Assembly (NCBI GenBank): GCA_022508565.1
Contig: JAFLUY010000005.1
Location: 1 to 64,000 of the forward strand
From: Erysipelotrichales bacterium
GTDB taxonomy: Bacteria; Bacillota_I; Bacilli_A; RF39; UBA660
DNA: 64,000 nucleotides
Reading direction: 5' to 3'
The notes under the pieces were generated by a model. The model was not told the origin of the DNA and did not search any database. It worked only from the letters and a program-made list of their open reading frames with translations. This document shows, piece after piece, positions 2,017 to 44,144 of this stretch. Made by a program: the position numbers and the translations under genes. Position 1 is the stretch's first letter. Every line of letters begins with the position of its first letter.

Positions 2017-3441
2017 TTACATTTTTGGTCCAGAACCAACATTTGGTTCTTCTGTTATAGCTTCATCTAACATTGCTTCTGCTTGATCTAATTCTTCCAT
2101 TAGTTCATCAACACTAAATTCAACATTACTTGGTTGTGCATGTTTAGCTTGAGAATATTTTTTTGAATGATATGCCATCTTATCTACATAATCTTTAGCA
2201 GCTTCAATTGCGCCTGCTTCAAGCATTTCATAAACAATAGCTGCAAATCCAGAAGCTGATGGCTTATGAGAATTTCTCGACCAATCTTTTAATTGGGAAC
2301 TTCCATTCCCTATCATAGCTGCTAAGATTTCAGGATGTGTAAAACTTGCTGCAAATGAATCTCCATCCTTTATTTGAGATAAATAATTTAATTTATCTGA
2401 TAATTCAGATGGATATGCATTTCTATTTCCATATTTTACTGCTGTTGCTTTAATATTTACAATCGCATCAGCTACTTCTCCTGATTTAAATACATCTAAA
2501 TCATCAGACCAAATCTCATGTTTAGCTAATGCTTCATTAACTAAATCAATAAAAGCCGAAAAGAAATGTCTATCTCCATTGTAAGCAATAATTGATTTAA
2601 CCAAATCATGATTATTTAATATTTCTTTCATTGGTCCAAACGATTTTATTCGCTCTTTCATCTCATAATAATCTTCACCTGAAGCTCCCAAATATTCATT
2701 AGGGTGTCTAGTACCATTTGTTAAAACTCTAACATTTTGAGAGTGTTCTAATGAAAACCCATTTCTTTGATTTTTTGTAACATATTCTCTTGTATAATGA
2801 GAAATGTTTGAAAGATATTCTTTAGCAGAGTCAATACTTCCTTGTCCTAACAATTCAGATATTAAAGTTGCAAATCCTTCTACAGGAATTTCTGAATTAG
2901 TGGTCCAGCTCGTTAAGTCAGTACGACCATTACCAGCAAATGCTTGTAATATTTGTGGATGAGTAAAACTTGCCGCAAATGAATTTGCATCTTTTATTTG
3001 TGATAAATAATTTAGTTTATCTGATACTTCTGAAGGATAAACATTACGATGACCGTAGACTCTTGCAGTTTCTTTCATGTTAACAATTGCATCTGCAACT
3101 TCTCCTGTTTTGAATACATCCAAATCATCTGCCCATATTTCATCCTTTGCTATGGCTTCATTAACTAATTCAATAAATGCTGCAAAGAAATGTCTATCTC
3201 CATTATAAGCAATAATCGATTTAACTAAATCATAGTCTTTTAATAATTCCTTCATCGAACCTAAAGAACTAATTCTATCTTTCATTTCATAATAGTTTTC
3301 ACCTGATGCACCTAAATGTTCGTTTGGTTTACTACTACCATTAGTAAGAATAGTTGGCTCAAATTCCTGTTTTCTATTTATACTATTACTTAAACTTTTA
3401 GTTTCTAGTTCTGAGTTATCTAAATATTGATTAATATCCAT
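2017..3441 (-). CDS. hypothetical protein with two tandem ~200-aa repeats
   Basis: internal duplication: LGASGENYYEMKDRI..LVKSIIAYNGDRHFFAAFIELVNEA and LGASGEDYYEMKERI..LVKSIIAYNGDRHFFSAFIDLVNEA, 208-aa offset. Confidence 0.8.
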   Translation of the reverse strand: MDINQYLDNSELETKSLSNSINRKQEFEPTILTNGSSKPNEHLGASGENYYEMKDRISSLGSMKELLKDYDLVKSIIAYNGDRHFFAAFIELVNEAIAKDEIWADDLDVFKTGEVADAIVNMKETARVYGHRNVYPSEVSDKLNYLSQIKDANSFAASFTHPQILQAFAGNGRTDLTSWTTNSEIPVEGFATLISELLGQGSIDSAKEYLSNISHYTREYVTKNQRNGFSLEHSQNVRVLTNGTRHPNEYLGASGEDYYEMKERIKSFGPMKEILNNHDLVKSIIAYNGDRHFFSAFIDLVNEALAKHEIWSDDLDVFKSGEVADAIVNIKATAVKYGNRNAYPSELSDKLNYLSQIKDGDSFAASFTHPEILAAMIGNGSSQLKDWSRNSHKPSASGFAAIVYEMLEAGAIEAAKDYVDKMAYHSKKYSQAKHAQPSNVEFSVDELMEELDQAEAMLDEAITEEPNVGSGPKM

Positions 3442-3584
3442 CGTCATCACCCTATTACTATTTTATCAAATTATTAATAAATTAGAATTTTTTAGGCCAC
3501 ACTTTACAAGCAACTTTACCATAGCTAATTTTTACAAAATTATTAATATATGATATATTATTAACCAAAAAAGAAGGGATAAAT

Positions 3585-4532
3585 ATGAATGTACTTGAAA
3601 TATTGACCCAAGAACTAAAAGATAAACACTGGTCTTTAGAAGAAAAAATAAGATATGTGTATTTACGTGTATGCGAATTCTTCGTCTTTGATTATCGTTA
3701 TAGATTAGCTACTCAGCTTCCAAACAAAGATGAAATTCTAAATTATATTGACAATAAAGATATCGATTTAACTAATTTGAACGATAGATATATAGTATGC
3801 CCAACATATACTGACAAAGTTATGCCAATTATTTTACAAGAATTGTTTGAAAAAATATGTAATATCAGGCATGTAGGAGGTCACTACTATCCATCGTGTG
3901 AGATTAACGGCATAGAAATTGCATTAGATGCTACAATCATGGATCTATTAAGAGTAAAAATGAATTTAACTACAATTGGATTTATACCAGATGGCGAAAA
4001 TGATTCAAAAGTACTTTATAATTATGACAAACACTTAAAAGAAATTGATAAATCTATTGGATATATCAAAGATAACTATGAAGATACATTTTTAAAAGAT
4101 TGTGGACGTAATTTTACTGAGCGTTACTTACGTGGTGAATATGGGGAAATAGTTGATAGTCCTGATGATGAATTCCTTAAAAAGATTAATTTTATTGAAA
4201 ATCTATATCAAAAATATAATGTACAAGATAACTTTACCGATGCAAAGTTTTGTCTTGAATATATTGCAAAATTTATATTCAACAAAAGTGATAAAGCTCG
4301 TCAATTAGTATCAACTCTATTCTTAGCAACAGATATAGAAAAAGAATGGGATTTAATAAATGTTTGGAGATTTCAATTAGAACAAACTGCCATCTTCTAT
4401 TCTTTGAAGAAAGAAAATGGCGAATATCATTTTGGAGAAACTCCTTACAATAAAATCTTAAAATATCAAGATTATAAAGGAGAGGCAAAAGCTCTATTAC
4501 TAACAGAACCAAACACTAAAGTTTTATTATAA
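3585..4532 (+). CDS. hypothetical protein, possible transglutaminase/papain-like fold
   Basis: EEKIRYVYLRVCEFFVFDYRY followed by C..GGHYYPSCEINGIEIALDAT (possible Cys-His-Asp). Confidence 0.45.
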   Translation: MNVLEILTQELKDKHWSLEEKIRYVYLRVCEFFVFDYRYRLATQLPNKDEILNYIDNKDIDLTNLNDRYIVCPTYTDKVMPIILQELFEKICNIRHVGGHYYPSCEINGIEIALDATIMDLLRVKMNLTTIGFIPDGENDSKVLYNYDKHLKEIDKSIGYIKDNYEDTFLKDCGRNFTERYLRGEYGEIVDSPDDEFLKKINFIENLYQKYNVQDNFTDAKFCLEYIAKFIFNKSDKARQLVSTLFLATDIEKEWDLINVWRFQLEQTAIFYSLKKENGEYHFGETPYNKILKYQDYKGEAKALLLTEPNTKVLL

Positions 4533-18611: not shown

Positions 18612-18626
18612 TTGGTCTTTTTATTA
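18598..18626. terminator. bidirectional terminator
   Basis: AAAAGACCAAATAATTGGTCTTTTTATT. Confidence 0.8.
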
Positions 18627-19526
18627 TAAATCATTTATTACTCCATTAATTAAATTTAAATCAGATGGAATTATCCAATCTACATTTGTCATTTTAAATA
18701 AAGTTAAAGGAATTATTGCGCCAGCTCTTGCACCATCCATCCATTTTGGATTACCTGGCATTAAATCATATAACTCCTGTAATGTAATATCATAAAATAC
18801 TTTTTCAGTTCCTTTAATATAATCTTCTAAGCTAACCATATATTTATGAACACCATCATCAAATAAAGTATTTGGAACTAAGTTAAATTCTGTTAATAAT
18901 TCAAATCTTTCTTCGCCACCTGTAAAGATTGCACAGTCATAATCAGTATCAAGATTTAAATCATTAAGTTTTTCTTTAACAAAATCATCCATCTCTTCTA
19001 CTGTATTACCACTTACACTCTCATTAACTTTACTAAAGTTATTTAATAGATCGGCAACACCTACTGTTAAATTCTTAGTATCAGTTATTTTATCACCTAC
19101 AAATGTGACTAATTCAGTGGTTTTACCACCCATATTGATAATTAATACTTTTTTTCCATTATAATCATTTTGCATTGCTTTTGCTAAATAATAGTTTTCA
19201 ATGCCATGACTAATAATATTAAAATGTAAGTCAAACTTATCATTAAATAATTTAACTAATTCTTGCTTACGTTCTTGTATAAGATTTCTAAATATACCTG
19301 TTACAAAAATATTAGTATTATCATATCTTAAACCGTATTTTGATTTAATAGATTCAAAATAATGACATAACTCTTGTAAATTAGCTTCACTAATACCTTT
19401 TTCCGGATCAAAATCATTTTTAAAATAAATTGAATTTTCCTCTAAAAGTTTTAGTTCAGTTTCATAACTATAAACTTTAATTGTTGAGGATCCTAAATCG
19501 ATATAATAATTTTTCACGTCTACCAC
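18624..19526 (-). CDS. Ppx/GppA-like actin-fold ATPase/phosphatase paralogue 1
   Basis: IDLGSSTIKVYSYE..VTGIFRNL..VLIINMGGKTTELVTF. Confidence 0.6.
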   Translation of the reverse strand: MVDVKNYYIDLGSSTIKVYSYETELKLLEENSIYFKNDFDPEKGISEANLQELCHYFESIKSKYGLRYDNTNIFVTGIFRNLIQERKQELVKLFNDKFDLHFNIISHGIENYYLAKAMQNDYNGKKVLIINMGGKTTELVTFVGDKITDTKNLTVGVADLLNNFSKVNESVSGNTVEEMDDFVKEKLNDLNLDTDYDCAIFTGGEERFELLTEFNLVPNTLFDDGVHKYMVSLEDYIKGTEKVFYDITLQELYDLMPGNPKWMDGARAGAIIPLTLFKMTNVDWIIPSDLNLINGVINDL

Positions 19527-25105: not shown

Positions 25106-25411
25106 TTAATCAACTAAATCTGTATAGTAAATTATTTCTTTATTTAATGATTTAGCCAACTCAATTTCTTTTTTTGTAGATTCACCAATATAACCGCCTA
25201 CATTAGTAACTAAAATTGCATCAGATATTTTTATTTTTTCTAAATGCATTTTACCAAGAATTTCCCCTTCTTCTTCAGTAAGACTATCTTTATCACAATC
25301 CGCCGGACATATTGGCACTAACACATTATTACCCTCAAGTTCCATTTTTAATGCAATACTCATCATTTCATTTTTGAATTTTAAACTTCCACAAACTGTT
25401 ATTGTCTTCAT
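25106..25411 (-). CDS. nucleoside 2-deoxyribosyltransferase-like/TIR-like small Rossmann protein
   Basis: MKTITVCGSLKFKNEM..ISDAILVTNVGGYIGESTKKEIELAKSLNKEI. Confidence 0.6.
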   Translation of the reverse strand: MKTITVCGSLKFKNEMMSIALKMELEGNNVLVPICPADCDKDSLTEEEGEILGKMHLEKIKISDAILVTNVGGYIGESTKKEIELAKSLNKEIIYYTDLVD

Positions 25412-25414
25412 ATT

Positions 25415-26182
25415 TTATACCTTCCTTTTACAAGTATTACTAAGTGGACATTCACCACACTTTTTATTATTACAAAACTGATTACCTACTGTCCATAAAT
25501 ACTTATCTATATCTGCTGAAGCAACATTATTGATTGATGCTGCTTTAACCCAAGATTCACCTAAACTATTAATCTCTTCTTCATTTAATATTTTTTTATT
25601 AACTACTCCATTTAAATAACTAATTTCTATATCGTGTCTATCTATTGGAATATTTTCTAAATCAAAATTAAAATCACTTATACCTGATTCATATATTAAT
25701 CTTAAGAGCAAACCTCCTGTTTTTTGACCATATCCCTTAATACTCAATATTAAATTTGCTAGTTCATCAAAACTTTTAATTGATTTAATTCTATTAAATA
25801 AATCTTGATTATCATTTAAATAAATTGAAAGACTTATCCATTTATTAACAGCAACATTTGGATATCGAGGATGAATATTATTAACAATTATATTTTTTAA
25901 TTCATCAAGATTATTGGTAAAATTATCTACTACATATTTTGGATTAAATATGTAAGGATATTCATTATAAGTTTCAATTAAGTTTTTATGATAGATTACA
26001 GAACGCATACTATAATCTAATAAACAAGAATAGAAAATATAAATCAAATATGATTCACTATTTTTATTTAAATTGCTTGGATAACTTACTTCAGCTGAAC
26101 TTTGTGACTCAGAATAATAATCTCTTAATAATTTAGAGCAGATGTTTGCTTTATCAAAATCTATATTAAAACTATTATTCAT
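25415..26182 (-). CDS. HhH-GPD-like DNA glycosylase with Fe-S cluster loop
   Basis: IKGYGQKTGGLLLRL; IPIDRHDIEISYL; C-terminal FCNNKKCGECPLSNTC; start at MNNSF (26182) rather than 26245. Confidence 0.65.
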   Translation of the reverse strand: MNNSFNIDFDKANICSKLLRDYYSESQSSAEVSYPSNLNKNSESYLIYIFYSCLLDYSMRSVIYHKNLIETYNEYPYIFNPKYVVDNFTNNLDELKNIIVNNIHPRYPNVAVNKWISLSIYLNDNQDLFNRIKSIKSFDELANLILSIKGYGQKTGGLLLRLIYESGISDFNFDLENIPIDRHDIEISYLNGVVNKKILNEEEINSLGESWVKAASINNVASADIDKYLWTVGNQFCNNKKCGECPLSNTCKRKV

Positions 26183-26645
26183 TTTCTTGATCCCATAAGC
26201 TAAGTTGCTCATTTGATTTACTAGATTTTGTTTTACCATCATCATAATCCCATAAACCTAATTGCCCATTAATAGGAATAGGAGCAATCTTTTCAACATC
26301 TTCAAGCTTAAATCCATAGCCTTCCCATACTTTTTCATAATTACCAGTACCTGCAACTTTATCAATAAATCCATAATAGATCAAACTATCTTTTTCTTGT
26401 AGTGATTTAGCCATCTTTTCATCAATATATACACAATCAGTTATATTAGCTTTAGCTATAATACATCCAGTTGGATATTCTAGATTTAGATGTTCAAATC
26501 TCTTCATAGCTTTCCTATCAATACCTTTTCCAGCATGTATTAATATCTCACCACGAAACTTCGTTTTCCAAGTTCTAAATTCATATTTCTTATAACCTTC
26601 TTTAATTAATGTAGCCCACGGTTGTTTTATTGTTATAACTTTCAT
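26175..26645 (-). CDS. ASCH domain protein
   Basis: MKVITIKQPWATLIKEGYKKYEFRTWKTKFRGEILIHAGK; C-terminal NGQLGLWDYDDG and NEQLSLWDQ. Confidence 0.8.
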   Translation of the reverse strand: MKVITIKQPWATLIKEGYKKYEFRTWKTKFRGEILIHAGKGIDRKAMKRFEHLNLEYPTGCIIAKANITDCVYIDEKMAKSLQEKDSLIYYGFIDKVAGTGNYEKVWEGYGFKLEDVEKIAPIPINGQLGLWDYDDGKTKSSKSNEQLSLWDQENE

Positions 26646-26727
26646 AAGTACTCCTCACTTTATAACAATATTTTAACACAAAACAACACATATTTGATAC
26701 AATATAGTCTTAAGAAAAGGTGATATC

Positions 26728-27465
26728 ATGGTTATACTTGATAAACTAACTGAAAGTAATTCAATAAAAAGTATATTTTTCGATATTGATGGTACGATTA
26801 CTAGATGGAAAGATGTAAGATCATTCTTAACAAAAGCATTAAGGGAACTAGATATGCCTTATAAAGAAGAATATCTTAGTGGTTTATATAAAGCAATGAA
26901 GTTAAATGACTATAATACCTTAACATCTGGACTTATGGATGAAGATGCTTATGCTAATTTACTTGGCATATATATAAGTGATTTGAAAAATTTTGGTTTA
27001 ACCGGAAAAGATTTAAAAAATAAAATGTTTGAACTTGAAGCATCACAAACTTATATAGATGATGATGTCTATGAAGAACTTACTCATTTGCAATCTGAGT
27101 ATCACTTATATTGTTATACAAATTGGTTTAAAATACAAGCAATGAAAAAACTTGAATATCACAATTTAGATAAATTCTTTTTAGCAGTTCATACTCCAGA
27201 AGATATGTTTATAAAACAAAGTTCTATCGCCTATCAATATCTTTTAGAAAAATATAGACTAAAACCAGAGGAAACACTTTTTATAGGAGATTCCAAAACT
27301 GATATCGTTCCAAGTAAAAAAGTTGGAATTAAAACTATTTATATTAATTATGATATAAAAACTGAAGATGATATTAATGCATCTTCAATGGAATTAATTA
27401 ACGCCTCCGATGCAAGTATTACAAAGTTTTCGGACATACATGTTGTTCTTTCTAAAAAATATTAA
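26728..27465 (+). CDS. HAD-superfamily hydrolase
   Basis: IFFDIDGTITRW; ETLFIGDSKTDIVPSKKVGIKTI. Confidence 0.85.
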   Translation: MVILDKLTESNSIKSIFFDIDGTITRWKDVRSFLTKALRELDMPYKEEYLSGLYKAMKLNDYNTLTSGLMDEDAYANLLGIYISDLKNFGLTGKDLKNKMFELEASQTYIDDDVYEELTHLQSEYHLYCYTNWFKIQAMKKLEYHNLDKFFLAVHTPEDMFIKQSSIAYQYLLEKYRLKPEETLFIGDSKTDIVPSKKVGIKTIYINYDIKTEDDINASSMELINASDASITKFSDIHVVLSKKY

Positions 27466-27519
27466 TAAATATGTTTAAAAATCTTTCTTATTAGATTATA
27501 ATTAATTAAAGGAGATTAT

Positions 27520-28422
27520 ATGAAAGAAGAATTAATGGCCATTATTGAAATTGGCAGCAACAACACAAAGACACATATTTATGACGATGATAAAGTAGTT
27601 TATGAACATCTTGCAACAATTGAGTTTAAGAAAAACTATAAATTAGAAGGTAAAATCTTAGAAAGTGACCTAGAAAGTCTTTATAAAGAAATAGAAACTG
27701 CTCTATCTTATACAAACAATGTAAATATTTATGGATGCAGTATATTTAGAAATATAACTAGTGAAGAACTAAATGAAATAAATAATACTTTAGAAGAAAA
27801 ATTTAATTTATCAATTACTGTTGTTTCACAAGAGGAAGAAGCAGAATATACAGCATTAGGTGCATATGGAAATATTGATTATGATGGAAATATCTGTGTG
27901 TTCATTGGTGGAGGTGGATCTACCGAATTAATAATTGTTAATAATAAAAAAATTATCGATAAAAAATATCTGGACTTTGGCGTAGTCGATATTACTAGTC
28001 ATTTTCCTGATTTAAAAGAAGATATTGCAACAGTGTCATTTGATGATGCATACTCATATGTTTATTCATTAATTGGTGAATTTAATCCACAATGCGATAT
28101 TATGATACTTTCTGGCGGCAATCATCCATACTGGTATCAAAATGCAGAGTTTGAACTTCTTGATAACACATTATATAAATGTGCAAATCAACCTTCAATG
28201 TTAACTATTGAAATGAGCGATAAGTATGATCGTGAAGCTTTGAAGATTTCACTTGATAAAGTTAGAAGCAATAGTGACAACCCACCTTGGTTTGATGGTT
28301 CAAGAGCAATGAAGATAATTACTAATGTTATATCACATAGAATAAATGCTAAATATATTATTCCAACGAATATAAACATGGAAGATGGAATAAGAAATAA
28401 ATTATTAAATAAAGAGGATTAA
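27520..28422 (+). CDS. Ppx/GppA-like protein paralogue 2
   Basis: AIIEIGSNNTKTHIYD; VSQEEEAEYTALGA; CVFIGGGGSTELIIV. Confidence 0.7.
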   Translation: MKEELMAIIEIGSNNTKTHIYDDDKVVYEHLATIEFKKNYKLEGKILESDLESLYKEIETALSYTNNVNIYGCSIFRNITSEELNEINNTLEEKFNLSITVVSQEEEAEYTALGAYGNIDYDGNICVFIGGGGSTELIIVNNKKIIDKKYLDFGVVDITSHFPDLKEDIATVSFDDAYSYVYSLIGEFNPQCDIMILSGGNHPYWYQNAEFELLDNTLYKCANQPSMLTIEMSDKYDREALKISLDKVRSNSDNPPWFDGSRAMKIITNVISHRINAKYIIPTNINMEDGIRNKLLNKED

Positions 28423-28440
28423 TTAATCCTCTTTTAATAT
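28414..28440. terminator. bidirectional terminator
   Basis: AAAGAGGATTAATTAATCCTCTTTTAA. Confidence 0.75.
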
Positions 28441-28857
28441 TATCCAAGTATTCATACCCTTCTTATTTATATGAAAAGGCGTAACTTTAGTTAATTTGTC
28501 AATAAATATTAATGTTGCATATTTACTATCTTTCTTTAAATCCCAAAAATCTTCGCCAACAAATAAAAACTCGCTATATTGATCTTTTATTTCGTTTATG
28601 TTAGTTTTATCTAAATCAAAAAATATTACATCTTTAATTGTAAAATAAGCAACAACATTACCACCAGATTCTTTAACTACAACAATATCATCTTTAGTAA
28701 TTTTTTTATATGGTAGCATTTTTTTCTTACTAAATCTTGATTCAATTGTTTTTTTACCATCTAGCATATAAGTTAAATAAGGCTCTGAAAAAATTCCTAA
28801 ATGAATTGTTTTACCACTTAAATCATCACTAATATTATTTATTATTTCTTTATACAT
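28423..28857 (-). CDS. ASCH-like domain protein
   Basis: IHLGIFSEPYLTYMLDGKKTIESRFSKKKMLPYKKITKDDIVVVK. Confidence 0.65.
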   Translation of the reverse strand: MYKEIINNISDDLSGKTIHLGIFSEPYLTYMLDGKKTIESRFSKKKMLPYKKITKDDIVVVKESGGNVVAYFTIKDVIFFDLDKTNINEIKDQYSEFLFVGEDFWDLKKDSKYATLIFIDKLTKVTPFHINKKGMNTWIILKED

Positions 28858-39504: not shown

Positions 39505-40932
39505 TTATTTTTTTATCATTTCTAATCTTTTAATGACTTCTCCATTTTTCGCACCAGTTCCTAGCGATAAAACACTGGTGTTTGTTTCACTTTCTAGCCA
39601 TTCTATATATCTATCAATATTATCATAATTTACTAGATATTTATTTTTTATATCTTCATAATTTCCTTGTTTTTCAAATAACCCATAATCAAATTGTTGA
39701 AAAAAATTTAAATATAAACCATGTGGATTATTAATTCTAACATTGTTCTTTAGTTTATAAATATCTAAATCAAATATTCTTCTTTCTTTTTTTGTTACAC
39801 TAGTCATTTCACTTAAATCAGTAATAATATAATCTGGACTTTCAAATACCCTTCCGTTATTATTTATTCTTTTTATTACAATTGACTTATAAGCTCGTTC
39901 ACCCTTTATCTTATGGTATATTCTCTCTATTTCTAAAGCGAGAATTAAATTTATCTCATTTTTTTCTAATGTTTCTCTTTCCACTCCATTTAGTAATTGT
40001 ATTTTATAAATAACTGGTAACATATTATACATTTCAATAATTTCATTTATTGATTCATCTAAAATAGATTTAGCATGATATGCAAATTCATAATAAATTT
40101 CTCTAGGACAATTATTTCTAAAAGGATAGACGCCATTTTGTGAAGCTAAATTCACCTCACTCCATGTTAGTTCAGCTCCAGTACCATAACTGCCTGTAAA
40201 CATATATGCACCATCTTTTGTAACATTACTTATTCTAATTGGAAATGGTCTTATTACCATAATCGTTTGAAGCAATCTTTCTGGTGAAATTCCTGAATCA
40301 GCCAGTAATTGAGAAGTAGAAACGTTTCTACTTGTAACAAACGGATAATTACCACTATGATTTAAATCTAAATCACAACCCTGAGCACCTTCTAACATTA
40401 CATACTCGTCATTTTTATCAAGATGGCTATATAATCTTTCTAGCCATTCATCATTAGAGCAAGCTATAGCGTTTTTATAAGTTTTGAAAAACTCTAATTT
40501 TTTATCTCTAATAACTTTTTCTTGAGTTACTGCCCCACAGCCTTTAAATGTTGAGCCACTTTTAATATGTTCTCTTTCATATTTTTTATGTCGTTCTACA
40601 ATTAATGGAACCATTTCGTGAACATATATTTTTCTATCTCCCAAATATTTTTTTACCTGGGCATACTCTTCTATAAATACATCCATATCAATAGCTGAAC
40701 CTGGACCAATAAATAGTTCAATATTTGGGTTAACTGATGATACAGGAATATTTCTAAAGATAGTAGCATGACCTTTCTCATCAACAAAAGTATGGCCTGC
40801 ATTTGGCATACAATTAGTTACAGATGCTCTGATATTGATATTTGGGTCTGTTACTAATTCACCAATAACTTTTGCTTTTCCGCAAGAACCAGCTGCACCA
40901 TCAATTACACATATAACATTTCTGTTAACCAT
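39505..40932 (-). CDS. PurA/PurZ-like adenylosuccinate-synthetase homologue (divergent)
   Basis: VIDGAAGSCGKAKVIGEL; NAGHTF; VMLEGAQGCDLDLNHSGNYPFVTSRNVS; EMTSVTKKERRIF; SLGTGAKN. Confidence 0.8.
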   Translation of the reverse strand: MVNRNVICVIDGAAGSCGKAKVIGELVTDPNINIRASVTNCMPNAGHTFVDEKGHATIFRNIPVSSVNPNIELFIGPGSAIDMDVFIEEYAQVKKYLGDRKIYVHEMVPLIVERHKKYEREHIKSGSTFKGCGAVTQEKVIRDKKLEFFKTYKNAIACSNDEWLERLYSHLDKNDEYVMLEGAQGCDLDLNHSGNYPFVTSRNVSTSQLLADSGISPERLLQTIMVIRPFPIRISNVTKDGAYMFTGSYGTGAELTWSEVNLASQNGVYPFRNNCPREIYYEFAYHAKSILDESINEIIEMYNMLPVIYKIQLLNGVERETLEKNEINLILALEIERIYHKIKGERAYKSIVIKRINNNGRVFESPDYIITDLSEMTSVTKKERRIFDLDIYKLKNNVRINNPHGLYLNFFQQFDYGLFEKQGNYEDIKNKYLVNYDNIDRYIEWLESETNTSVLSLGTGAKNGEVIKRLEMIKK

Positions 40933-40953: not shown

Positions 40954-41643
40954 TTATAATCTTGGCCCCTTATTTTTTCTTTTAAATTCTATATCTTTGC
41001 TCATGCATATAAATGGATCAATTGAATATCTCTTTAAAAGATCAACAACCCGATCAGACGTCATATTTCTTGAGTTTCCTTGCTCATCAACATTATCTTT
41101 TTGATTAATTAGTAATATTAGTTTATCAGGAAATTCAATTAAACCTTTAAATATTCTACCATCAACACTTTCTGGTTCAAAATGATTATTTATGTAATTA
41201 AAATTTAAATTTCCTTCAAGTACTGGATAGTATGTACAATCGATTAGACCTTTAACTACATTGTCCTTAACTGCATCTTCTAAAACATATTCTTCTCTAG
41301 CAAACCAAATTATTGGAATATCTTGATCATCTTCTATTTTTTGCTCTTGATCTAAGAAACTAACCTCCACAAATTTTTGTCCTTTTTCAGTTAAATACTT
41401 TATTGCGTCTTCTTTAGTAGCTGGTGAATCTTTCATTATCATTATTAAGACATCACTTTCTTCATTATAAATAACTGTATCAAATATACGGGAATGAATA
41501 ATATTTCTACCAATACTTAACATACTTACACAGTTATCATAAATTATACTTAATCCACTTTTAATTTGATCTAAAGCTGTATAAATTTCTGATCCATCTT
41601 CTTGAATAGACCATACATCTAAATTACTATTCATGTACGTCAC
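40954..41643 (-). CDS. hypothetical protein in PurA-like/glycosylase operon
   Basis: ORF overlapping the upstream UDG-like gene; no family recognised. Confidence 0.6.
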   Translation of the reverse strand: MTYMNSNLDVWSIQEDGSEIYTALDQIKSGLSIIYDNCVSMLSIGRNIIHSRIFDTVIYNEESDVLIMIMKDSPATKEDAIKYLTEKGQKFVEVSFLDQEQKIEDDQDIPIIWFAREEYVLEDAVKDNVVKGLIDCTYYPVLEGNLNFNYINNHFEPESVDGRIFKGLIEFPDKLILLINQKDNVDEQGNSRNMTSDRVVDLLKRYSIDPFICMSKDIEFKRKNKGPRL

Positions 41644-42322
41644 CTAATTCTCTCCAAATACTCCTATATCTTTCTAACTGTTTATCATTACTAATTTGTG
41701 CAGTTGGGTGATAAAGAGGAATGATAATATAATTATCTGCTTTTATTATATCATTTTTTTCCAATACCTTACTAAGTGTATCTTCAATTCTAAAATTAAA
41801 TACACTTGCTAAAGCTTTAAGAGGATAATAACCTAATGTCACTATTACTTTTGGTTTAACAATATCAATTTGTCTCACTAAATATTTTGAACAACAAAGT
41901 GTCGAATGATTTAAATTAATATTATTACCTCGATAATTAGATCCACTTCTTGCACACATTATTGCATTTGTAATATATATGTTATTTAAATCACATTCAT
42001 GGTTTTCTAAACTTGCAGATTCACATAAATATTTAAATAGTTTCTTTTTAGTTAAACTTTTTTCTGAATCTATTAAGTCTTGGAAATCTTCTCCATTTTT
42101 AAATCTTTCATAAAGTGATACCATATCTTGATATGGACCCCAGTCTTGACCGATTATAAACAACTCACTATCTAATCTGCCATACCAATCAGTCCAGATT
42201 GAAGGAATATTTTTCGCAATATCAGCATCATAAAAATTTATTAATGATTTATCTTTAAGATTTAAACACTTATTACATTTTGCTAACTCAGTTATTAATA
42301 TATCAAACTCATTATTTTTCAT
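41627..42322 (-). CDS. uracil-DNA glycosylase superfamily protein
   Basis: CNKCLNL; LFIIGQDWGPY; IYITNAIMC; KPKVIVTLG; IIPLYHPTAQ. Confidence 0.8.
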   Translation of the reverse strand: MKNNEFDILITELAKCNKCLNLKDKSLINFYDADIAKNIPSIWTDWYGRLDSELFIIGQDWGPYQDMVSLYERFKNGEDFQDLIDSEKSLTKKKLFKYLCESASLENHECDLNNIYITNAIMCARSGSNYRGNNINLNHSTLCCSKYLVRQIDIVKPKVIVTLGYYPLKALASVFNFRIEDTLSKVLEKNDIIKADNYIIIPLYHPTAQISNDKQLERYRSIWRELGDVHE

Positions 42323-43073
42323 CTAAGACACTTTCATCTAATTCTATAAATCCACCTCTACTCCATAACCAAAGTGGTGTATGAATATCAATAGGTTTAT
42401 AAGGAGTATTTTTAAATAAATCTTTCCATCTATCTATAACAACTTGTTGAACACTTGCTGATTCTAATTCTTTATCATTTATTAGTCCAAGTCTATGAGT
42501 GGCTTTTACTACATGTGTATCTGGAGCTACAGTTAATTCTTCTGCATTAATATATCTTGTATCAGTATATTGCATTATTACGTATAACCAATAATTAACT
42601 AACTTAGTTCCACTAATATATGGAAAATCTTTTTTGTGGTTAACAATAAAATCTCTAATCTTATTAACATTATAATTATTTTCTTCAAATAACTTTCTTA
42701 TATCACCATCAAAAAGATTAATAAATGTATTGCACAACTTAATCCATATTTCTGTTTGTTTATTCTTTTGTAATGCAACTTTATATTTAACTAAAGCTGT
42801 TTGTACTTCTTCAAAAGTAGATTCTATAACTTTATAAGGGTCAAAAACAAATCTAGTTTCTTCATCTTTAGCAGTTTTGTTTGCTCCTTCCCATAAGGTA
42901 TAAGAATTCCTTTGATAATTTAAAGACATTGGTAATGTAAAATATATATAGTTTTCTAAAGATGTTAGTTCATAATGAGGATTTTCATCTTCTGGCATTA
43001 CTTCCCCGCCTAGCATACCTTTTTTATACATTGCCATTAGTATCTCACATTTTTTTATTATGCCATTACTCAT
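42312..43073 (-). CDS. HhH-GPD-like (putative DNA glycosylase) protein
   Basis: FPYISGTKLVNYWLYVIMQY..LTVAPDTHVVKATHRLGL resembles the EndoIII-type LPGVGxKxA..DTHVxR core. Confidence 0.5.
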   Translation of the reverse strand: MSNGIIKKCEILMAMYKKGMLGGEVMPEDENPHYELTSLENYIYFTLPMSLNYQRNSYTLWEGANKTAKDEETRFVFDPYKVIESTFEEVQTALVKYKVALQKNKQTEIWIKLCNTFINLFDGDIRKLFEENNYNVNKIRDFIVNHKKDFPYISGTKLVNYWLYVIMQYTDTRYINAEELTVAPDTHVVKATHRLGLINDKELESASVQQVVIDRWKDLFKNTPYKPIDIHTPLWLWSRGGFIELDESVLDEK

Positions 43074-43478: not shown

Positions 43479-44144
43479 TTATCTTATTGTCTTAATAATC
43501 CATTTAATATCTTCAATTGATTTATCTATATTAAATATACCATTGCCAATTGGATAATAAACTGAATAAAAATCATATGAATTACCATTTATTTCTTTAA
43601 CAAATTTTTGTTTTCTAGTTTCAGATACACTTATCTTTTTTTCTAGTACAATTGAACTAACTTGATTCCCAAATAAAATTATTACTTTTGGTTTGATTAT
43701 TTCAAATTCGCATTCCAAAAATTTTTTATATTGTAAAAATACCGAATCAGGTAAAGGTCTTGCATCTATTTGAGTACATTTACCTAAGTTAGTTATAAAT
43801 ACTTTATGTTTTCTAACATTAGCATAAACAGACTCTGCAAATTCAACTGTCCAATCACTACCTTTAATTGATCGAACTTCCTCATAAATATCTTTATCTA
43901 AAAGACCTACTTTATAAAAAAGGGTCCAAATATTTTTTGTTCCGATCCATGGAGATTTAGGCCCAACCCATTCTTTACTTGATGCCACATTTCTTCCTGT
44001 TGGATTCATAAATACAAAACAAATATCAGGATTTTCACTGCAACCGCCATTGTATATGGAATCTAGTTCTTTTGCTCCATACTTTCTCTGTAATTTATCA
44101 TATTCAATTTTTAAATCCTCTAAAGTATTATAAGTTTTAATCAT
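43479..44144 (-). CDS. divergent uracil-DNA glycosylase superfamily protein
   Basis: ICFVFMNPTGRN; VFITNLGKC; KPKVIILFGNQ; VYYPIGNG. Confidence 0.65.
   Translation of the reverse strand: MIKTYNTLEDLKIEYDKLQRKYGAKELDSIYNGGCSENPDICFVFMNPTGRNVASSKEWVGPKSPWIGTKNIWTLFYKVGLLDKDIYEEVRSIKGSDWTVEFAESVYANVRKHKVFITNLGKCTQIDARPLPDSVFLQYKKFLECEFEIIKPKVIILFGNQVSSIVLEKKISVSETRKQKFVKEINGNSYDFYSVYYPIGNGIFNIDKSIEDIKWIIKTIR

Follow-up and report, generated by a model that had tools for sequence, protein, structure and literature searches.

Chromosomal PurZ-like gene

We propose that a gene in the window (the whole stretch of 64,000 nucleotides analysed here, from an Erysipelotrichales bacterium) represents a chromosomal, Bacilli-specific sister lineage of phage PurZ, and we consider it probable that its product works as PurZ does. 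The enzyme PurZ commits a phage to using the Z base (2-aminoadenine), and its origin is debated. Computation shows ancestry and fold on the PurZ side, together with intact PurZ-type sites for nucleotide, ATP and aspartate. The gene and its two defining features are as follows.

39505..40932, minus strand: predicted PurZ-like (d)GMP:aspartate ligase, 475 aa (profiles, AF2, Foldseek)
40885..40887, minus strand: codon TCT of Ser16, in place of the catalytic Asp13 of E. coli PurA (alignments)
39817..40137, minus strand: helical insertion of ~110 residues (residues ~266-372), before the aspartate loop (alignment, AF2 helices)

The reading frame holds 475 open codons and its N-terminus reads MVNRNVICVIDGAAGSCGKAK. 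A sequence-only reading had noticed a PurA-like protein in which the GDEGKGK motif is changed to GSCGKAK, with the other signature motifs kept. The change is real, and every quoted motif is present in the frame: NAGHT at residues 44-48, EGAQG at 181-185, YPFVTSRN at 196-203 and the Arg loop EMTSVTKKERRIF at 375-387. In a 15-sequence alignment including E. coli PurA and phage PurZ, Ser16 of the GSCGK loop falls on the catalytic Asp of the former and on the Ser of S-2L, phiVC8 and SH-Ab PurZ. The residue is not a chance substitution, since a 49-row alignment shows Ser without exception at this position, both in all 35 Bacilli homologues and in the 14 viral sequences. The reading had named Asp to Ser as a hallmark of PurZ, and the same exchange is reported to occur in all of 147 phage PurZ (100%; PMC12884076).

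Family assignment

That the protein is PurZ-like and not an ordinary PurA, as had been suspected from the motif, is agreed on by profiles, PDB sequence and fold comparison, site residues and phylogeny. The PHROGs family phrog_1211 (PurZ) matches it at E 8.3e-49, and Pfam PF00709 (PurA family) at 104.7 bits (E 6.2e-30). Its best NCBIfam model is PurZ NF038379 at 175 bits, below the cut-off of 300; the NCBIfam PurA models give 143 and 109 bits, and TIGR00184 (PurA), at 109 bits, does not reach its cut-off of 395.55. S-2L PurZ (7odx) came top in a PDB sequence search, followed by phiVC8 (6fm1). For the AF2 model (mean pLDDT 91), the best Foldseek matches were phiVC8 DgsS (6tnh), P. horikoshii PurA and S-2L PurZ, with TM scores of 0.83-0.85 by target. 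The model places helices at 277-303, 307-313, 329-342 and 351-358 within the insertion, a feature of the main Bacilli clade that phage PurZ and the ~385-aa forms (L054-L057) lack.

In the tree, PurA and PurZ are split with support of 100/97, and the Bacilli proteins lie on the PurZ side as one clade (support 99/95 or 100/100); in a rerun without the longest branches, PurA and the Bacilli clade stood on opposite sides of a 100/100 branch. On profile scores, site residues and tree an ordinary PurA was rejected. A tree that sets phage PurZ apart from the Bacilli proteins and PurA was not firmly rejected (AU test, p 0.069), a result compatible both with a place beside all phage PurZ and with one nested among them, and for this reason we limit the claim to a sister or early PurZ lineage, not a nested phage gene. 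The exact place of the Bacilli lineage could move with PurZ0 and archaeal sequences. We read the Bacilli protein as a putative cellular sister lineage of PurZ. It was not filed as PurZ proper because the NCBIfam score lies below the cut-off and neither a Z-cluster nor a PurB context was found. The tree also contained a very divergent full-length PurA-family protein (L208, genome G048, 2269-3672) with an end branch of 3.08; genome G169 has a protein similar to it (229 bits).

Active site and comparison with known enzymes

Among the positions compared, S16, N44, A45, H47, T128, Q184, R233, T377, V379, T380, R384, N409, F410 and G460 are invariant in 35/35 Bacilli sequences, and Q412 is kept in 28 of the 35. 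The surroundings of the guanine base, the P-loop, the NAGHT His and Arg384 are preserved. The aspartate loop reads T-[TS]-V-T, like the T-T-V-T of phage PurZ, and the GTP motif of PurA, T-K-x-D, has become N-F-x-Q, an ATP-type motif like that of S-2L PurZ. The S-2L enzyme uses ATP, and its structure supplies the residue roles that we used (PMC8342488). In that enzyme Val241 is said to clash with the ribose 2'-OH, whose exclusion also involves a loop insertion, and the backbone of Tyr21 lies beside the 2-amino group (PMC8342488). The Val241 position is Ile234 in 35/35 Bacilli, where a loop insertion is also present, and the Tyr21 position is Ala in 34/35. The site residues therefore fit an ATP-dependent (d)GMP:aspartate ligase, perhaps one preferring dGMP, with the choice of substrate predicted from residue identities; the Tyr21 to Ala change and the large insertion suggest that substrate preference may differ.

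The Bacilli protein thus resembles phage PurZ/DgsS (phiVC8, S-2L, SH-Ab 15497) in the Ser that replaces the catalytic Asp, the aspartate loop, an N-F-x-N/Q motif of ATP type, the dGMP pocket, the fold and the side of the tree. It differs from them in being chromosomal, with 28-33% identity, in the helical insertion and the Ala and Ile just described, in missing the NCBIfam PurZ cut-off, and in having hosts without PurB and no MazZ or DatZ found. With PurZ0 of Arthrobacter and Microbacterium phages it shares the superfamily and the active-site Ser, but the two are far apart in the tree, the nucleotide-base site of PurZ0 is T-M-x-D, and no clear DutZ or DmtZ companions were found here, just a general dUTPase-like match. 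PurA, including the short archaeal PurA, has the same fold and most active-site residues, whereas the Bacilli protein has Asp13 replaced, the GTP motif lost, a clearly separate branch and no PurB.

Distribution

A search with this protein as query found 58 contigs, all from uncultured Bacilli and most from gut metagenome assemblies, with 50-65% identity over the full length in most. The same query gave no match among 2.9 million viral contigs; named phages reach at most 35% identity, and no relative above about 35% was found in the phage and viral collections. Near full-length copies occur in 11 of 146 genomes sampled from the order, including a disrupted copy in G101, and further genomes of this sample carry a shorter form or fragments. 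Samples of the class (395 genomes) and phylum (392) gave matches solely within the same family. Decayed copies were seen in G010, G041, G079 and G101. Given its patchy presence, its changing neighbours and the fragments, the gene seems to have been gained and lost more than once, and from the first two we infer that the cassette may be transferable. No description of a bacterial PurZ lineage was found in searchable papers.

Several more distant relatives came to light. A shorter protein of ~367 aa, 42% identical, is encoded at 3102-4205 of L209 (genome G035) and also in G176; it is basal in the Bacilli clade, and the L209 gene adjoins a NUDIX gene and lies ~0.9 kb from a serine recombinase. 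The GSCGK form of the loop, otherwise typical of the Bacilli clade, also occurs in viral PurZ relatives, encoded by a 370-kb viral contig (L226) and by L227, L256-L258 and L270. Bacillus phage vB_BpsS-140 (L190, 5950-7071) carries a PurZ relative, 35% identical, with GSEGK and annotated purA, and no annotated gene of MazZ or DatZ type lies within ~6 kb of it.

Genomic neighbourhood and links to base repair

The sequence-only reading had remarked that a PurZ-like enzyme outside a prophage would be unusual. The gene is indeed surrounded by cellular genes, with no phage gene adjoining. Upstream of it lie the following.

40954..41643, minus strand: 229-aa protein without assigned function, directly upstream of the purZ-like gene (21-nt gap)
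41627..42322, minus strand: UDG-superfamily protein, family-4-like, overlapping both neighbours (PF03167, 57.5 bits)
42312..43073, minus strand: probable relative of HhH-GPD-like DNA glycosylases (weak), at the head of the apparent operon
43479..44144, minus strand: second UDG-superfamily protein (PF03167, 31.4 bits)

The purZ-like gene is the last of an apparent operon that runs from the HhH-GPD-like gene through the UDG-superfamily and 229-aa genes. The first UDG-superfamily protein scores 44 bits with TIGR00758, below the model cut-off. Pfam gives no match for the HhH-GPD-like protein, and a relative of it in L221 matches AGOG/HhH-GPD weakly, at E 0.015/0.07. Genome G101 belongs to the same genus and has HhH-like and 229-aa genes in the corresponding position. 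Relatives of the second UDG protein adjoin the purZ-like gene in L018 and the partner gene ppxA in L219, and UvdE, identified in L055, adjoins the ppxA-purZ pair in three distant relatives (L055-L057). These links to base repair are few and suggestive. Elsewhere in the window, two ASCH-domain-like proteins, one HhH/Fe-S-like and one deoxyribosyltransferase-like protein are clustered at 25106-28857; Pfam confirms one ASCH domain and the others were assigned by eye. The region is rich in nucleotide-handling genes when this cluster and the UDG genes are taken together.

The Ppx/GppA-like partner

18624..19526, minus strand: ppxA, Ppx/GppA-like (PF02541, 34.9 bits; Foldseek fold)

Roughly every second related locus has a ppxA orthologue directly upstream of the purZ-like gene. 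Where both are nearby, they are on the same strand with a spacer of 17-24 nt in 29/30 loci. In this genome ppxA is 20 kb from the purZ-like gene, and it is 70-84% identical to the purZ-linked orthologues. Carrier genomes have an orthologue in 32 of 50 cases, with none seen in the other 18; within the order sample, 9 of 11 carriers have it, against 4 of the remaining 135 genomes (Fisher p 6e-10, uncorrected for relatedness). Like Ppx/GppA phosphatases, ppxA passes the PF02541 cut-off (34.9 vs 27 bits) and has, by Foldseek, the Ppx/GppA fold. It differs from them in being just 300 aa long, in scoring below the cut-off of the exopolyphosphatase model and in its motifs, which are altered in all orthologues: GGKTTEL for GGGSTEL, and GIEN for G-x-E-E. 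Because of these altered motifs ppxA may not be an ordinary phosphatase, and its catalysis may differ. We regard the partner as the best lead to the fate of the PurZ-like product. The window holds a second Ppx/GppA-like protein (27520-28422, plus strand), with GGGSTEL and EEEA motifs as usual and ~30% identity to ppxA.

Missing pathway steps

A search for canonical purA, MazZ and DatZ elsewhere in the genome, which had been suggested with the original observation, found none; by tblastn MazZ, DatZ and DUF550 gave no match, and MazZ and DatZ were also absent from the flanks of the PurZ-like gene. Neither PurB nor any other Lyase_1 protein occurs in the genome, and E. coli GuaA and PurM gave no clear match there. 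Single absences here are not proof, since the assembly is in 37 contigs and 95% complete. Across carriers, a Lyase_1 protein, and hence PurB, is missing in 48 of 50 genomes, and a canonical PurA is present in 6 and absent from 44. PurB is rare in the order as a whole (5 of 146 genomes at E 0.001, 4 of them over the cut-off), so its absence is a general feature that does not single out the carriers. With PurB absent, the phage route to Z, which relies on that host enzyme, is not available in carriers. Production of Z-DNA by these bacteria is not supported, the Z-cluster partners and a PurB-type lyase being missing. The guanylate kinase family is normally universal in bacteria; PF00625 was not found in this genome nor in ~40% of the 146 order genomes. 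A link between this loss and PurZ was dropped, several carriers having PF00625.

Proposed function and alternatives

The mechanism that we envisage would begin with ATP activating a guanine nucleotide, (d)GMP and probably dGMP, at O6; L-aspartate would then displace the phosphate, giving N6-succino-2-amino-(d)adenylate. This succino-nucleotide would be an end product or feed a PurB-free step, and would not be turned into 2-aminoadenine by PurB. As to the role, we would guess first at a transferable cassette that modifies nucleotides, whose Ppx/GppA-like partner might control the guanine-nucleotide pool or the product. The wider proposal, of a bacterial PurZ lineage independent of phages whose succino-2-amino-(d)adenylate is an end product or enters a PurB-free pathway with the Ppx/GppA-like partner, we hold tentatively, as a possibility that falls short of even chances.

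Four other explanations were weighed. A complete cellular Z pathway, in which dSMP is made, a lyase of a type not recognised here yields dZMP, Z enters nucleic acid and UDG/HhH-like glycosylases police it, would draw on the PurZ-type active site and on the DNA-repair genes found close to several copies (UDG among 3/106 flanking proteins, UvdE in L055-L057, the HhH/UDG operon here). However, the glycosylase links are few, and it is unlikely given the near-total lack of Lyase_1 proteins among carriers and of MazZ and DatZ in this genome. A replacement PurA that tolerates Ser, uses IMP and supplies AMP in purine-poor cells would account for the 44 carriers without canonical PurA, and it accords with the homology to PurA and with an archaeal PurA among the nearest solved folds. 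Yet AMP could not be finished without PurB, six carriers have a canonical PurA as well, the nucleotide motif is ATP-type rather than GTP-type, the aspartate loop is PurZ-type, and IMP is unlikely to be a hub, since GuaA and PurM lack clear matches here; we consider this explanation very unlikely.

An anti-phage or antimetabolite cassette, whose succino-nucleotides or depletion of (d)GMP would harm phage replication, would suit the patchy distribution, the repeated decay, the varying genomic places and the linked partner, but PADLOC gives no match for the purZ-like gene or ppxA and the flanks give no sign of a defence island (per model, at most 2 of 106 proteins); a defence island was therefore rejected, and the cassette reading is just as improbable as a replacement PurA. 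Least probable of all is a phage gene caught in the chromosome as a prophage remnant without cellular role. Its closest named relatives are phage enzymes and the shorter G035 relative lies near a serine recombinase, but against this stand the 58 genome contigs and the lack of viral contigs among the matches to that query, the cellular neighbours, the active site invariant across the clade and the conserved two-gene unit. A prophage gene was rejected because no phage genes adjoin it and that query gave no relative in viral contigs.

Implications

An archaeal origin of PurZ has been suggested (PMC8342488), and four archaeal sequences were reported as basal (PMC12884076). The conserved chromosomal lineage in gut Bacilli adds a cellular branch to this debate. 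Because the next enzyme is missing from almost all of its hosts, the lineage also poses a testable question, whether the succino-nucleotide is itself useful or a new lyase exists. If the wider proposal of a phage-independent lineage making succino-2-amino-(d)adenylate holds, 2-aminoadenine-type nucleotides would belong to cellular metabolism and would not be a phage speciality.
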